48,612 nucleotides of DNA from an uncultured Candidatus Altimarinota bacterium (GTDB taxonomy: Bacteria > Patescibacteriota > Gracilibacteria > BD1-5 > UBA6164), in NCBI GenBank assembly GCA_913055215.1, contig CAJXJP010000004.1, positions 1 to 48,612 of the forward strand, written 5' to 3'. Made by a program: the position numbers and the translations under genes. Below, piece after piece: positions 30,368 through 40,645 of this stretch (positions are counted from its first letter, which is position 1; each line of letters begins with the position of its first letter). A model generated the notes under the pieces. It was not told the origin of the DNA. It did not search any database and was given only the letters and a program-made list of their open reading frames with translations.

Positions 30368-30394
30368 AAACTCTCGTAAAACGAGAGTTTTTTT
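30366..30394. terminator. Bidirectional terminator
   Basis: AAAAACTCTCGT / ACGAGAGTTTTT with loop AAA (30366-30392), at the shared end of the DUF378-like gene and the gene that stops at 30393. Confidence 0.85.
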
Positions 30395-31094
30395 AATATT
30401 CAATTATCAGTTCTGATGTGTTTCATGAAAAACCAATTTGTTCTCCATTATATTTCAATAGTTTTGCAAAAGTTAGCGGTAATATTTTTTCTGTTACAAC
30501 ACATTCTGAAAGAAATTTTTCAACTTCTTCCGTTTTATCTTCTATATAAATCCCTGCCATACTTCCCCTGTTTATTGCCTTGAACATAGATTTTACTTGT
30601 CCTGATTCACGAACTGGCGGATTGAAAAATATTTTTTTTCACATTCTTTTATAATCGCTCCCCTTCCACATAATATTTTCAATTTTAACTGACACCGTCA
30701 CAAGTGCTTCTGCAAAATTTGGAACATAACAATTTACATCATCTCTCATATATCAAAGAGAGTCATAATATCTTTCCAACATATCAATTTCTTCTCAAAG
30801 TGTAATTCCAACAATATGTATTTTTTTATTATTATTTATAGCATTTTCAAATAATTCTGTGAAAATTTCTAATTCATCTTTTGGAGAATAAACATTTGAA
30901 TACATTGCAGGCTTATTAACTAATTTATCTGCAATTTCATCATTTTTTCTTGGCTCTAATAAGTCTGACATAAAAATAACTTCAACATCATAATTTGAAT
31001 CGTAGTCAAAATTTAGATAATCAAATGAGAATTTTGCATCAAATACATCTGTATTTTCTATATTTACAATTTTGTCTTTATAAACTTTTTTCAT
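30393..31094 (-). CDS. Hypothetical protein, 233 aa
   Basis: Soluble protein starting at ATG 31094 and ending in TAA. Acidic N-terminal half (FDYDSNYDVEVIFMSDLLEPR) followed by IHIVGITLGEEIDMLERYYDSLG, where the first Gly after ITL is TGA, and RMGKKIFFNPP. Strand-helix alternation suggests an alpha/beta fold. No motif I can name. A hairpin at 31138-31167 stands upstream and ends the preceding HD gene, so this gene probably has its own promoter. Confidence 0.65.
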
Positions 31095-32342: not shown

Positions 32343-33203
32343 TTAGACAAAAAGTAAAATACTTACAATGGTTAATATAAATGCTACCACTTTTTTTACC
32401 GTAATTTTTTCTTTATAGAAAATAACCGACAAAATAATTGGAATAAACAATGAATACGAAATAATTTTATAAACTATTGCTACATCCCCTTGTTGAAAAG
32501 CCAATGTATTAAACAATGCCGAACAATAAAAAAATATTCCATTTATCATCAAAAATAAAATTTCTTTTTTATTGGTAACTTTCCATATTTTTTTGCCTTC
32601 TTTTTGTTGCAATCTCATAATTATCATTCCAACAAATCATTGAACAACAAACAATGACGCAATATTATGCCCCGAAACTACAAAACTTTTAGAGAGTAAT
32701 TGAGCAACGGTAATTAAAACAACTCCGAACAAAATATAATAAATTCATTTTACAAAATCACTTTTTGATTCTTTTTTTTCTTTTTTTTCTAACAATAAGA
32801 AAAATATTAAGAATCATAAAAATATTCACACATATTCTTGCAAAGAGATAACTTCACTAAATAATATTTGTCCAAATATTAGTAATAAAATTGATGAAAA
32901 AATTCTATAATTAATGAAATACGTTGAAGAATCTACATATTTTAAACACTTAATTCTTGATTGCAAAATTGCAATATAAACACCTGTAATCATAGCGCCA
33001 TACATAAAAACCTCTAGCGTCATCTCAAAAGATTCTTGCAAAACTATCAAGCTAGAAATTCAAAAAAAGGCTAAAGAAAAGTAACTGTAGAACAAAAAAC
33101 TATCCGCTGATAATGTTTTTTGTTCTGCTACAACTTTTTGAAAAAATCAGGCAAAACCAATAAAAACTGTTGCAATCAATGCATATATCATCCATAAATC
33201 CAT
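32343..33203 (-). CDS. EamA/DMT-type transporter, copy 1
   Basis: 286 residues with about ten membrane helices arranged as two EamA-like halves, as in drug/metabolite exporters. Conserved-looking parts include MDLWMIYALIATVFIGFAGFFQKV and the C-terminal YKIISYSLFIPIILSVIFYKEKIT. Clearly homologous to the next gene (33280-34152), and both share an identical 44-bp leader. Several glycines are TGA. The substrate cannot be told. It is the distal copy, downstream of copy 2. Confidence 0.85.
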
Positions 33204-33244
33204 AAAAAAACTCTGTTAAAATTAATTAACAGAGAGTATAAGAA
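33201..33244 (-). repeat. Identical 44-bp leader, copy 1, terminator-like hairpin
   Basis: Minus-strand TATACT is followed by the stem CTCTGTTAA / TTAACAGAG (33211-33234), seven T, then the ATG of the transporter gene. The 44 bp are identical to 34150-34193. Confidence 0.75.
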
Positions 33245-33279
33245 TTTTTTTAATACAATGAAATAAAAGTATCTAATAC

Positions 33280-34152
33280 TTAAACAAAAAGTCAGACACT
33301 TATTATAGTTAACACAAAGGCTAATATTTTTTTCCATGTTATTGATTCTTTATAAAAAATCATTGAAAGTATGATTGTAATAAATAATGAATATGAAAAA
33401 ACCTTATAAACAATCGAAACATCTCCACCCGATGAAAGAGCCTTAAGATTTCAAAAAACTCATGTAGTAAACACTGAAATTAACACAACATAAGTTCAAA
33501 AATCTTTTATGTTTTTTATTTTTAGTAATTCGGTCATATCTTTTTTCTTATCTCTCAATAATGTTGTGAAAATTATCCCTGATAATCCCGAATAAAAGAT
33601 ATAACTTCAAATATGTAAATCATGAAGTACTAGATATTTTTGTACAATCCAACATACCACTGCTAAAATAGTACAAATTCATAAATAACCATATCATTTT
33701 TTTGTATTTCATATTTTTTTATTATCAGTATTTTTTTCTAAAAGAAGATAAAAAATTACAAATCCTAAAAATATACCGATATATTCTTGTAGGTTAATAT
33801 GCTCGCTAAATATAACTTGTCATAAAATGAGCAAAATCGATGAGGTAAAGATTCTATAATTAATAAAATAACTTGATGTTGTTATGTAGCTTAAACTTTT
33901 TAAACGCGCTTTCAACGTAATAACATATAAAAAATTAAGTAAAAAAGCTGGAAATATTACTGATAAATTAAATTGTAAAGTATCTCATGAAAACAACATA
34001 ATTCCTCCTGTCAATATAACCATTGAAACATAAGCATATAATAAAAACCCATCCCTATGGATTGTTTTACTTTCAACTTCTACTTTTTGTAAAAATCAAA
34101 ATATTCCACTTGAAACAGTAGCAATCATTGCAAAAAACAACCAATCTTCCAT
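33280..34152 (-). CDS. EamA/DMT-type transporter, copy 2
   Basis: 290 residues, about ten helices, paralogue of the downstream gene: both begin with a W-rich helix, share YFINYRIF, a QEYxGIFLGFxIF-LLLEK block in the middle and a VYKVFSYSLFITIILSMIFYKE end. Rich in TGA glycines. The segments between helices have diverged, so the duplication is not recent although the leader is identical. Substrate unknown. Confidence 0.85.
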
Positions 34153-34211: not shown

Positions 34212-35453
34212 CTATTTCTTGTTTTCCTTTAACTTATCAAGAAATTGTTGTTTTCCTCCAGGGAAAGTATCAGAATAAATACACCCACAATAATTTTGCC
34301 TATAAATATCATGTTTTTTCGTATACTCAACAGATCTTTCGAATCATTTATTTTTACGAAAAGCTATTTTAAAAAATTCTAATTTATCTTGTAGCGATTC
34401 TTTTGTTTTTGGGTCTATCGTTTCCTGAATTGACCATTTTTCTCATAAGTTAAACATTTTATCCAGATCTTTATGAGGAGAAGTATTGAGCGTTGAAGTC
34501 CAATACTGTATTCATAATTTACGAGCTTCTAGTGCTGATCTTTCTAGACGCATATCGTAACAAGCGGTACATTTATCTCATTTTTCTGGAGTATGTTCAA
34601 GTCATTGAATTTTTTTAAAGAAATTTCAAACATCATATTCTCAAATAATATATTCTACTCATTCTATTTCACACACTTTTTTAAACGCTTCTACTCTTTT
34701 ATCATGTTCAGGTTTTGGTTGAATATTTGGATCATACCAAAAACACACTACATCGTATTCTTTTTTTAAATCCATAATTGGCACCGTCGCATCTGGACCG
34801 CAACAAATATGAAGTAATAGTTTTTCTTTTTTTTCAATTGTCGCTTTAATTGGCTTATAACTGACTCTATGAATTCCTGTTACTTTTGACTTATCTGTTA
34901 AATATTCTCTATGTTTTTTTGTCCCGTATCATTTATGATTTTCAAGTCACATATCTGGGTACAAAGAAGAGTATGTAACTATTAATTTATCCCTAAAAAC
35001 CTTTGCAATAATTGATGCTGCTCAGATTTCAACAATTTTTCCATCTCAACCAATTATAAAAATCGGTTGTTTTTTTAATTCTTCAAATTCATAATTATCA
35101 TTTCCATCAATCATAACTGTAGAAATATTTTCCACATCTATTTTTCTTTTTATTTCGATTAAAGCCCTTCTCATGGCTTCCCTATTCGCTTGCTTGATAT
35201 TAATTTCATCGATTATGAAATTATCAGCTATTCAAACTCCAAAAAATACTTGAGGATTTTCTCCTAAGCTCATTTGTATTAATTCTTCGTATAAAATTTC
35301 TCTTTTTTTCTCAGTTAATTTTTTACTATCATTTACTCTCGAAAGGAATGATTTTTCAGGCATATTTTCTGGATTGAAAGATAGAGCACAAGCAACAACT
35401 GGTCCTATCCAAGGTCATCTTCCAGCTTCGTCAATTCAAATTTTTATTTTCAT
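34212..35453 (-). CDS. RNase HII - QueH fusion protein
   Basis: 413 residues, two enzymes in one frame. N-terminal RNase HII (residues 1-205): GIDEAGRGPWIGPVVA with D8 and E9, RVNDSKKLTEKKRE, TVMIDGND, SAASIIAKVFRDK and a HKGYGTKKH-type segment. It removes RNA from RNA-DNA hybrids. C-terminal QueH/DUF208 epoxyqueuosine reductase (210-413): LLLHICCGPDA with C217-C218, KCTACYDMRL and YCGCIYSDTFPGG; it completes queuosine in tRNA. The frame is continuous across the joint (PIKATIEKKEKLLLHICC) with no stop or start. It ends in TAG. Convergent or divergent neighbours give no further hint; a tRNA methylthiotransferase gene starts divergently 82 bp away. Confidence 0.9.
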
Positions 35454-35534: not shown

Positions 35535-36821
35535 ATGGAATATAAAATCTTTGGATGTAAAGTAAATAAATATTACACTGACGAATGGCTCAATTCAGAA
35601 TATCTTTCAGACAAAAAAGGTATTTTTATTGCGTCATGTGTTGTAACTGACAATGCAAAAAGAAAATGGATTAAATTCGTAAAAGATACGGCAAAAACTC
35701 TTTCAGACGAACAAAAAATATACGTAAGTGGCTGTTGAGCATTCAAAAAAGGTGAAGCTCAAGATGATTTTTTTGATATTTATCCAGAAATTGATTTTCT
35801 TCGTGGAAAAGTAGAAATTCTTTGAGAAAAACCTGAAGAGCTAAAAAAAGAAATTACTAATTCAAAAGAAGAAAGAAATAAAAAACTTTCTGATATAAAA
35901 AATAAACTTTCGAAAATTCCACAAATTTATACAAAAAAATTCCTTCTCGTACAATGAGGTTGTGATAGCTTTTGTACTTTTTGTCTCACTGTTCAAAAAA
36001 GATGAAAACATTATTTTAGAGACAAAGATGATATTGTTGAAGAAATTTTAGAATTTGAAGCCGCTGGATGAAAAGAAGTGGTACTGACTTGAGTAAACCT
36101 TTCTGCTTGGGGATTAGAACATACAAACGATATTTGAAACTCACGCTTTGCTGAATTAATAGAATACATATTACAAAAAACTGAAATTCCTCGTTTAAGA
36201 ATCAGCTCAATGTGACCTGAATTCATAGATGATAAATGTTTAGAAGTTTTTAAAAATACAAGAATTTATCCTCATTTTCACTATTCAGTACAAGCTGGAT
36301 CAAGCAAAACTCTCAAAGTTATGCACAGACATTATGATGGCGAATATATGAGAAACTTATTAGAAAAAACTAAAAACCTCACAAGAGAAGATTGAGTCGA
36401 AGTAAGTATCGGAGCTGATTTAATCGTTGGTTTTCCTGGAGAATCACATGAAGATTTTATGGATACATTTAACCTTGTGAAAGATGGACTTATTACAAAA
36501 GTTCATGCATTTCCTTTTTCTGCTCATCATATGTGAGAATGAGTTCCTGCTTGAAAATTTCCAAATCAAGTAAATGATAAAGAAAAAAAAGAAAGAATGT
36601 GGGAATTATCAAATATATCAGATCACGTGAGAGATGACTTTATTGATAGAAATATTTGAAAGGAATTTGAAGTACTTATTGAAGTTGTAAAAGAGGAGGA
36701 AAATTGAAAAATTAAATGGAAAGGTTGGACTCAAAATTATATTGAGGCGGACCAAGACACGTTTGAAATCACATCTGGAAATATTGTCAGAAATCAAATC
36801 GTAAAATGAATTTTAAAATAA
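35535..36821 (+). CDS. mtaB: tRNA methylthiotransferase, MtaB/MiaB family
   Basis: 428-residue radical-SAM enzyme that adds a methylthio group to a modified adenosine at position 37 of tRNA. N-terminal UPF0004 domain with three cluster cysteines (FGCKVNKY, IASCVVTD, VSGCGAF), then the radical-SAM motif CDSFCTFC (C143, C147, C150), GGKEVVLTGVNLSAWG, RISSMGPEF, HFHYSVQAGS and VGFPGES, and a C-terminal TRAM-like stretch. The GVNLS pattern favours MtaB (t6A) over MiaB. Many glycines are TGA. A queuosine enzyme lies next door, so tRNA-modifying genes are grouped here. Confidence 0.88.
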
Positions 36822-36834
36822 TAAATATATTACT

Positions 36835-37281
36835 ATGTTCTATATTGTCCTCATTTCATCAATTTTTATTGATTTTGTTACAAAATATGCCGCATATACA
36901 AATTTAAATGAAAAAGTATCAATTTTATGAAATTTTTTCTTTTTAAAGTATGCAGAAAATCCTGGAATTGCTTTTTCTATTGAAATACCAACTCTATTAT
37001 TAAAAGTAATGACAATAGTTTTGATAATCACTATTTTCTATTATTATAGACAAGAAAATAAAACACTTTCAAAAAAAGATTCACTTATACATAATACTGC
37101 ATTTTGACTTATTCTTGGAGGAGCTATCGCAAATGGTTATGAAAGAATTTTTCATGAGAAAGTAATTGATTTTATTTGAGTCCAAGGCTTCGCAATTTTT
37201 AATATGGCTGATGCCTTTATAACGATTGGTGCTATTATTTATCTTTATATGATTTTTATTGCAAAAAAAATTAATTTTTAA
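36835..37281 (+). CDS. lspA: Lipoprotein signal peptidase, catalytic Asp replaced by Glu
   Basis: 148-residue membrane aspartyl protease that cleaves lipoprotein signal peptides. Four helices; conserved blocks KYAENPGIAFSI, GGAIANGYERI and FAIFNMADAFI. The second catalytic Asp is D126 (FNMAD). The first, normally in GNxxDR, is Glu here (E103, codon GAA). Start at ATG 36835, 13 bp after the mtaB-like gene; 10 bp before the next gene, so they are probably cotranscribed. Confidence 0.9.
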
Positions 37282-38646: not shown

Positions 38647-39240
38647 TTAATTAATTTCCGCATAAACTGAATGTTTTGCATCTGCAGTTTCACTAGATAA
38701 ATCACCCCATCCCGATTTAGTTTGTAGAGTTCAATAATCTGTTGTTCCATCTGGCTCAATAGTTCAAAGATCACCCCAGTCAGCATTTGCTTTTTTATAA
38801 GTTTCTACATTCGAGACAAGTATATAACCTCATTGAGGGATTCCTGATTTAACTAGCGCTGAATAACCAAAAGCTGCATCAACTCAACATCCTCAAGATC
38901 TATTTGTTGCTTGTGGATCTACAGGAGATGTTCCTCATTTTAATAATTCTCAGATTGCAGGTGAAACAACACCAGCTGAACTACTAAAACAAGCTGTCCC
39001 TGCAGCTGTATTTTCGTTTGTTGCATGATTTGGAGATAATGGAAACTTTCCTTCATCAGAGTAATATGTTTCTAATACAGCAGTAATATTTTTTAAACTC
39101 GATACTCTCCCTGCATCTCTTGATCTTGCTTGTGCTCCTGTTAATTGAGGAACTAAAGTTACAGCTAAAACACTAATAATTGCGATTACAATCATTAATT
39201 CAATAAGTGTAAAACCTTTTTTTGTTTTTAATAATCTCAT
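38647..39240 (-). CDS. Type IV pilin, tandem copy 1
   Basis: 197 residues. Leader and helix MRLLKTKKGFTLIELMIVIAI are a classic prepilin signal cleaved between Gly and Phe with Glu5. The first ~60 residues are almost identical to those of the next two genes; the head then differs and contains two Cys pairs. TGA glycines lie in the head (for example EGTSPVDP-like repeats). It probably forms a pilus or pseudopilus fibre; the peptidase is not in this window. Confidence 0.92.
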
Positions 39241-39340
39241 AAAAATTATTTAGTTAATAAAAAAAACTATAGTTAAAATATGCTTATCATACTTTAATAT
39301 AGTCCTATTTTATATTTTTTTTCACAATCTGTCAAAATTT

Positions 39341-39373
39341 AAAAAAAGAAAAGCTCTTGCTTTTCTTTTTTTT
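39341..39373 (-). terminator. Pilin copy 2 terminator
   Basis: AAAAAAGAAAAGC / GCTTTTCTTTTTT with loop TCTT, overlapping the gene's stop codon. Confidence 0.8.
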
Positions 39374-39942
39374 TAATTTGTTTCTACATAAACAGAATCT
39401 TTTGCTCCACCAGAAGTTGTAGCCTCAGCTGCTAATGATATCCCAACTTTATTAGCTAAGTCTCAGTGTTTTGTTGCAGCACTTATAGTACTCCAATTAG
39501 AGTTAGCTTTTTTATATGTTTCTACATTTGCAACAATTAAGTATGAAGCATTTGTAATTCCTGATTTTTCTAGCACCTTATAACCAAATGATGCATTTGT
39601 ACCACATCCACCTGCTGTATTAGTTGCTTGTGGATCAACCGGAGATGTTCCTCATTTTAATAATTCAGATAAAGCCGTATTAACTTTACCATTTCCATCA
39701 CTAAAACATCCATTTGCAGAAGCTCCATCTAATGGAGATAATGGAAATTGTCATTCATCAGAATAGTATGTTTCTAGTACTGCTGTAATATTTTTTAAAC
39801 TTGATACTCTCCCCGCATCTCTTGATCTTGCTTGTGCTCCTGTTAATTGAGGAACTAAAGTTACTGCGAGAACACTAATAATTGCAATTACAATCATTAA
39901 TTCGATTAAAGTGAACCCTTTTTTTGTGTTTTGTCTTCTCAT
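39373..39942 (-). CDS. Type IV pilin, tandem copy 2
   Basis: 189 residues. Same prepilin start (MRRQNTKKGFTLIELMIVIAI) and the same stalk (SVLAVTLVPQLTGAQARSRDAGRVSSLKNI...). The head differs from copy 1, with about half its residues conserved (SPVDPQATN, YKVLEKSGI-like, NVETYKKAN). Ends SVYVETN. Its own terminator and leader make each copy an independent unit. Confidence 0.92.
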
Positions 39943-40042
39943 ATAAAACTTATAATGAATAAAATTATTCTACAAAGCAATATTACTTTATATACAGACA
40001 TATTGTATTATTTTTTTATATATATGTCAAAAGAATAATTAG

Positions 40043-40077
40043 AAAAAAAAGAAAAGCTTATGCTTTTCTTTTTTTTT
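40043..40077 (-). terminator. Pilin copy 3 terminator
   Basis: Long A run, GAAAAGC / GCTTTTC stem and T run, very similar to the terminator of copy 2. Confidence 0.8.
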
Positions 40078-40645
40078 AATTTGTTTCAACATACACTGAG
40101 TTTTTTGCTCCTGCATTTTCTTGTGCTCTTGTGAATGAAATTCATGTTTTACCAGAAAGTTGGCTATGCATAGTTGCTGATTTTATTGTACTCCAATCAG
40201 CATTAGCTTTTTTATAGGTTTCAACATTAGCAACTATTATATATGAAGCATTTGAAATTCCTGATTTTTCTAATACCTTATAGCCAAATGATGCATTGGA
40301 CATACATTCTCCTGCTTTATTTGTTGCCTGTGGATCAATTGGTGAAGTACCTCCTTTAAATAATTCTTTTAGAGAATCATTTACTGATCCATCAGTTTTA
40401 CTAAAACAATTGTTTGCTGTAGTTTCTCATTTAACTGGAATAAGAGGAAATTGCCCTTCGTCAGAATAATATGTTTCTAATACAGCAGTAATATTTTTTA
40501 AACTCGATACTCTCCCTGCATCTCTTGCTCTTGCTTGTGCTCAAGTTAATTGAGGTACTAAAGTCACAGCCAAGACACTAATAATTGCAATTACAATCAT
40601 AAGCTCAATTAAAGTAAAACCCTTTTGTGTATTTTTTATTCTCAT
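40076..40645 (-). CDS. Type IV pilin, tandem copy 3
   Basis: 189 residues. MRIKNTQKGFTLIELMIVIAI, then the shared stalk with LTGAQARARDAG, where copies 1 and 2 have ARSRDAG; the Gly of LTG is TGA here but GGA in the others. The head is closest to copy 2 (SPIDPQATN, FGYKVLEKSGI, IVANVETYKKANADW) and ends KNSVYVETN. Confidence 0.92.

Follow-up and report, generated by a model that had tools for sequence, protein, structure and literature searches.

A conserved fusion of RNase HII and QueH in a TGA-recoded lineage of Patescibacteria

INTRODUCTION

RNase HII (rnhB; PF01351) carries out the first step of ribonucleotide excision repair, while QueH (DUF208; PF02677) converts epoxyqueuosine in tRNA to queuosine by reduction. 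Here we describe a gene in which the two are joined in a single polypeptide. It was found in a 48,612-nt stretch of contig CAJXJP010000004.1 (hereafter the window) from an uncultured Candidatus Altimarinota bacterium. The host lineage consists of tiny bacteria in which the stop codon TGA is decoded as glycine. Such recoding in Gracilibacteria/BD1-5 has already been published (e.g. PMC4032931), and the window agrees with it.

The protein resembles RNase HII in having the whole domain with its four acidic residues, the GRG motif and the tyrosine of HKGYG, and differs from it in carrying a complete QueH domain as a C-terminal extension. Likewise, it shares with QueH (e.g. PDB 7lc5) the whole domain and the CC, CxxC and CGC cysteines, and differs in having an RNase HII domain at the N-terminus. 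A NadD-like-QueH fusion in a sister family is similar in that a related QueH forms the C-terminal half behind a short joint; there, however, the N-terminal enzyme is unrelated and RNase HII is a separate gene. In the literature searched, which was mainly open-access, no report of QueH together with RNase HII was found, nor one of RNase HII together with Patescibacteria. As far as we have searched, the architecture is unreported; neither activity is new.

A SINGLE RECODED FRAME ENCODES BOTH DOMAINS

Under the standard code (table 11) the fusion stretch is broken by many stops, while NCBI table 25 gives a single frame of 413 residues (Table 1). This result confirms the uninterrupted frame described in a first-pass annotation, with the addition that it is open only when TGA is read as glycine. 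The coordinates of that annotation were also correct, the gene lying on the minus strand (35453..34212). Several of the in-frame TGA codons encode glycines that do not vary in the GRG, GGD and GYG motifs, and most of the window's other genes likewise stay open only with TGA as a sense codon.

Table 1. Features of the fusion gene, its neighbours and related loci
Feature	Position	Strand	Remarks
RNase HII-QueH fusion gene	34212..35453	-	413 codons + TAA; table 25; 15 TGA = Gly
RNase HII domain	34854..35441	-	residues 5-200; D8, E9, D116, D137; GRG 11-13; Y176
Joint	34821..34853	-	residues 201-211
QueH domain	34269..34820	-	residues 212-395; C217 C218, D221, C295, C298, C389, C391
MtaB/MiaB-like radical SAM methylthiotransferase	35535..36821	+	divergent, 81 bp from fusion
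lspA (signal peptidase II)	36835..37281	+	conserved alongside MtaB-like gene
Uncharacterised 233-aa protein	30393..31094	-	
NadD-like-QueH fusion loci, sister family			L083, L085, L087, L088, L130-L133

Residues 5-200 match Pfam PF01351 with 117.7 bits (cut-off 25.8; E 8.2e-34), and this half also matches NCBIfam NF000595 with 174.2 bits (cut-off 167). It can be aligned to PDB entries 3o3g, 2etj and 7uwe, which we take to be the enzymes of Thermotoga maritima (3o3g, 2etj) and E. coli (7uwe). Residues 212-395 match PF02677 with 181.5 bits (cut-off 23.5; E 2e-53), and PDB 7lc5, presumably T. maritima QueH, is matched with E 4.8e-27. The Asp after CCxP is common to the fusion and T. maritima QueH, while PDB chain 9dco has Asn at this position.

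The residues singled out in the first-pass annotation, namely D8, E9 and D116 (the D of IDG) in RNase HII and C217-C218, C295/C298 (KCTAC) and C389/C391 (YCGC) in QueH, are all present and show no variation among the 48 fused homologues; the cysteines are those expected for the QueH metal centre. Beyond that list, D137 completes the acidic set of RNase HII; this residue, Y176 of HKGYG and G11-R12-G13 are also kept in 48/48. All 24 residue positions checked are identical across the 48 proteins. The first-pass description of both joined domains as intact is borne out.

An assembly error at the joint, a concern of the same annotation, is contradicted by the occurrence of the same joint in independent genomes, one of which is a single 1.34-Mb contig. 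The presence of the full-length fusion in 48 genomes rules out such an artefact. The fusion is real and its architecture is conserved. Across the joint, the HR..CC spacing is 22 in 43 of 43 close homologues. In a control, 246 of 391 stretches of 22 residues were free of indels, and NadD-QueH joints are also near constant in length; the invariant length was consequently rejected as a sign of coupling between the halves. AlphaFold2 prediction from five sequences gave a model of low confidence (mean pLDDT 61.9, pTM 0.43), with the joint below 50.

DISTRIBUTION OF THE FUSION

In the order (77 genomes) the queries were the complete fusion protein and QueH; the class (353 genomes) was searched with QueH, and the phylum (380 genomes) with both queries. 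Full-length fusions were recovered from 48 genomes overall, which answers the question of whether other genomes carry them. The fusion is present in 40 of the 48 genomes of the window's family, in two genomes of the sister family f155 (G392 and G397), in five genomes of f157, a second TGA-recoded family in which the remaining two QueH genes stand alone, and in one genome of another order of the same class (G595), which is without sign of recoding. Among named genomes, a scan found four loci with the fusion, under the names Candidatus Gracilibacteria or Patescibacteria. The match in G436 lies at a contig end and is confined to the first 17 residues, and searches with the whole fusion and with QueH gave no match in G418 and G434.

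Separate genes in close relatives had been named as a possible objection to the fusion. This holds in so far as five genomes of the same family (G414, G416, G417, G444 and G453) have an RNase HII of the fused type without QueH; these five, however, also lack QueA. G400 of the sister family likewise has such an RNase HII alone. All six unfused genes end at the joint and are followed by unrelated genes, and no QueH remnant was seen downstream of them. In trees, these six RNase HII proteins group with the fused ones. The RNase HII gene of G444 lies at the same locus as the window's fusion, since it adjoins the same divergent MtaB-like gene and lspA, so the QueH half would have been lost, or never joined, at a shared locus. 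Because several of the unfused proteins nest among fused ones in the trees, their placement favours loss of QueH over its never having been joined.

QUEUOSINE PATHWAY GENES AND OTHER QueH PARTNERS

The window's genome encodes a single RNase HII and a single QueH, both of them in the fusion gene, and also RNase HI. The upstream queuosine steps are represented by TGT on contig C11 and QueA on contig C41. A look for QueG or QueH elsewhere in the genome, as proposed in the first-pass annotation, revealed no second QueH, and QueG is absent from all genomes of the order (0/77), the same search detecting QueG in 7 control genomes.

We also compared the occurrence of QueH and QueA. Both genes, QueH only, QueA only and neither were found in 50, 1, 10 and 16 genomes of the order (Fisher p 6e-9) and in 40, 0, 2 and 6 genomes of the family (p 2e-6), although these values ignore relatedness and the genomes are not independent. 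All 6 family genomes without QueA lack the QueH half, which 40 of the 42 with QueA possess. Judging from these counts, the QueH half is dropped along with loss of the queuosine pathway (QueA). The QueH-only genome is G389 (L085, L110), which is 93% complete and has a NadD-fused QueH with no QueA detected.

At 8 loci in the other f155 genomes, QueH is the C-terminal half behind a NadD-like nucleotidyltransferase, and a separate RNase HII gene was seen in several of these genomes. The QueH partner differs between G396 and G397, which are assigned to the same genus. Two further loci in family f146 (L174 and L175, in G339 and G357) have QueH C-terminal to a WecA-like glycosyl-1-phosphate transferase. 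This partner, of the WecA/MraY type, is a membrane enzyme. A quick tree places the NadD-fused QueH proteins as one clade inside the RNase HII-fused QueH group; the alternative tree with them outside that group was not rejected. QueH is best read as a fusion-prone C-terminal module that appears to have been joined to at least three different hosts. The NadD half of L132 contains ~130 extra residues that by eye resemble a DUF559-type endonuclease domain, a candidate assignment.

TETHERING, COUPLING AND ORIGIN

The product is probably a bifunctional polypeptide whose halves are tethered but act independently. We infer both activities, and their independence, from the intact domains, the conserved fusion, the sole copies, the presence of TGT and QueA, the co-loss of QueH with QueA and the alternative partners. 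The N-terminal half is predicted to be an ordinary RNase HII that cuts 5' of ribonucleotides embedded in DNA. Once TGT had inserted the base and QueA had added the epoxycyclopentane moiety, the C-terminal half, predicted to be an ordinary QueH, would convert epoxyqueuosine to queuosine at position 34 of tRNAs with GUN anticodons. Not everything fits this reading equally well. The stability of the fusion over most of a family is not necessarily predicted by neutral joining, f157 repeats the pair in the same order with a different linker, and the pairing with QueA has exceptions in the order, with QueH lacking a detected QueA in G389 and QueA lacking QueH in 10 genomes.

Functional coupling, in which the RNase HII half would be a tRNA scaffold or queuosine synthesis and ribonucleotide repair would be co-regulated via the shared protein, could also explain why the fusion is stably kept in 40 of the family's 48 genomes and why f157 shows this domain order again. 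We consider it unlikely. Other QueH partners have no nucleic-acid role, one of them being a membrane enzyme, and the constant length of the joint is unremarkable against the control. A ‘Rosetta stone’ fusion would be expected to be specific for its partner and to gain or lose its halves jointly, but QueH has NadD-like and WecA-like fusion partners too, and it is lost with QueA while RNase HII stays. Tethering without coupling is favoured because we know of no step linking ribonucleotide excision repair with epoxyqueuosine reduction and because partners are exchanged, a membrane protein included. On these grounds the coupling of tRNA modification to nucleic-acid handling proposed in the first-pass annotation is unsupported, and its other proposal, compact genome economy, fits best. 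It is quite unlikely that the pair was joined repeatedly and selected, with the nucleic-acid-binding half aiding tRNA capture or tying queuosine to repair in these host-dependent bacteria. The idea that the gene yields two proteins by internal initiation, frameshifting or cleavage, and hence no functional fusion, is hardly credible. The window's joint does contain an in-frame A AAA AAA heptamer, but few relatives keep it at that position; in-frame heptamers occur in 20/48 fusions, their places varying in DNA that is AT-rich, and the joint of the window's gene has no ATG, GTG or TTG start codon. Frameshifting and internal initiation at the joint were rejected as not conserved.

As to the origin of the tethered halves, a copy of queH was likely joined by chance to the 3' end of rnhB, and the joined gene would have been kept with each half useful and separate expression not needed. 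Alternatively, the TGA stop of rnhB could have become glycine, so that the ribosome read on into queH. TGA does encode glycine in most fused genomes, but most fusions have no glycine at the joint, and G595 shares the joint with no TGA codons in the gene or in long neighbouring frames. Recoding was therefore not needed for the join, and these two observations disfavour readthrough as the origin. It is very unlikely, even though an ancient event with later loss of the glycine and transfer to G595 is conceivable. The trees place G595 within the fused clade on a long branch, and transfer is therefore possible; its fusion (L202) may have crossed a genetic-code boundary. Placing every fused RNase HII domain in one clade was not rejected (p 0.90 in the quick tree; AU p 0.38 in the careful tree). 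For QueH, the corresponding grouping of all proteins fused to RNase HII was weakly rejected (p 0.015), but not when f157 was left out (p 0.083). If independent, the f157 fusion would hint at an advantage of the pairing, although the test does not reject a single origin (AU p 0.38).

That QueH behaves as a C-terminal module on unrelated housekeeping enzymes in Patescibacteria warns against deriving function from fusion in reduced genomes. The lineage also provides a clean comparative system, with one family in which the fusion is intact or trimmed alongside QueA loss and a sister family with a different partner.

GENES NEXT TO THE FUSION

The divergent MtaB-like neighbour noted in the first-pass annotation is real. 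Its best NCBIfam match is MtaB, with 257 bits, below the cut-off of 357. As evidence for a functional link it is weak, because it lies beside the fusion in only part of the lineage and an MtaB-like enzyme modifies another tRNA position than queuosine. The gene for the 233-aa protein is directly or nearly directly downstream of the fusion, or near it, in about 20 relatives; in the window it is displaced from the fusion by EamA, EamA and YfbR-like genes. This protein has no Pfam match and weak NCBIfam matches to dihydroorotase-type amidohydrolases. The two EamA transporters between the fusion and this usual downstream neighbour (32343-34152, minus strand) are in tandem and mutually similar. Elsewhere in the window, three tandem genes on the minus strand (38647-40645) have near-identical prepilin-type N-termini (KGFTLIELMIVIAIISVLAVTLVPQLTGAQAR...) and diverging C-termini.
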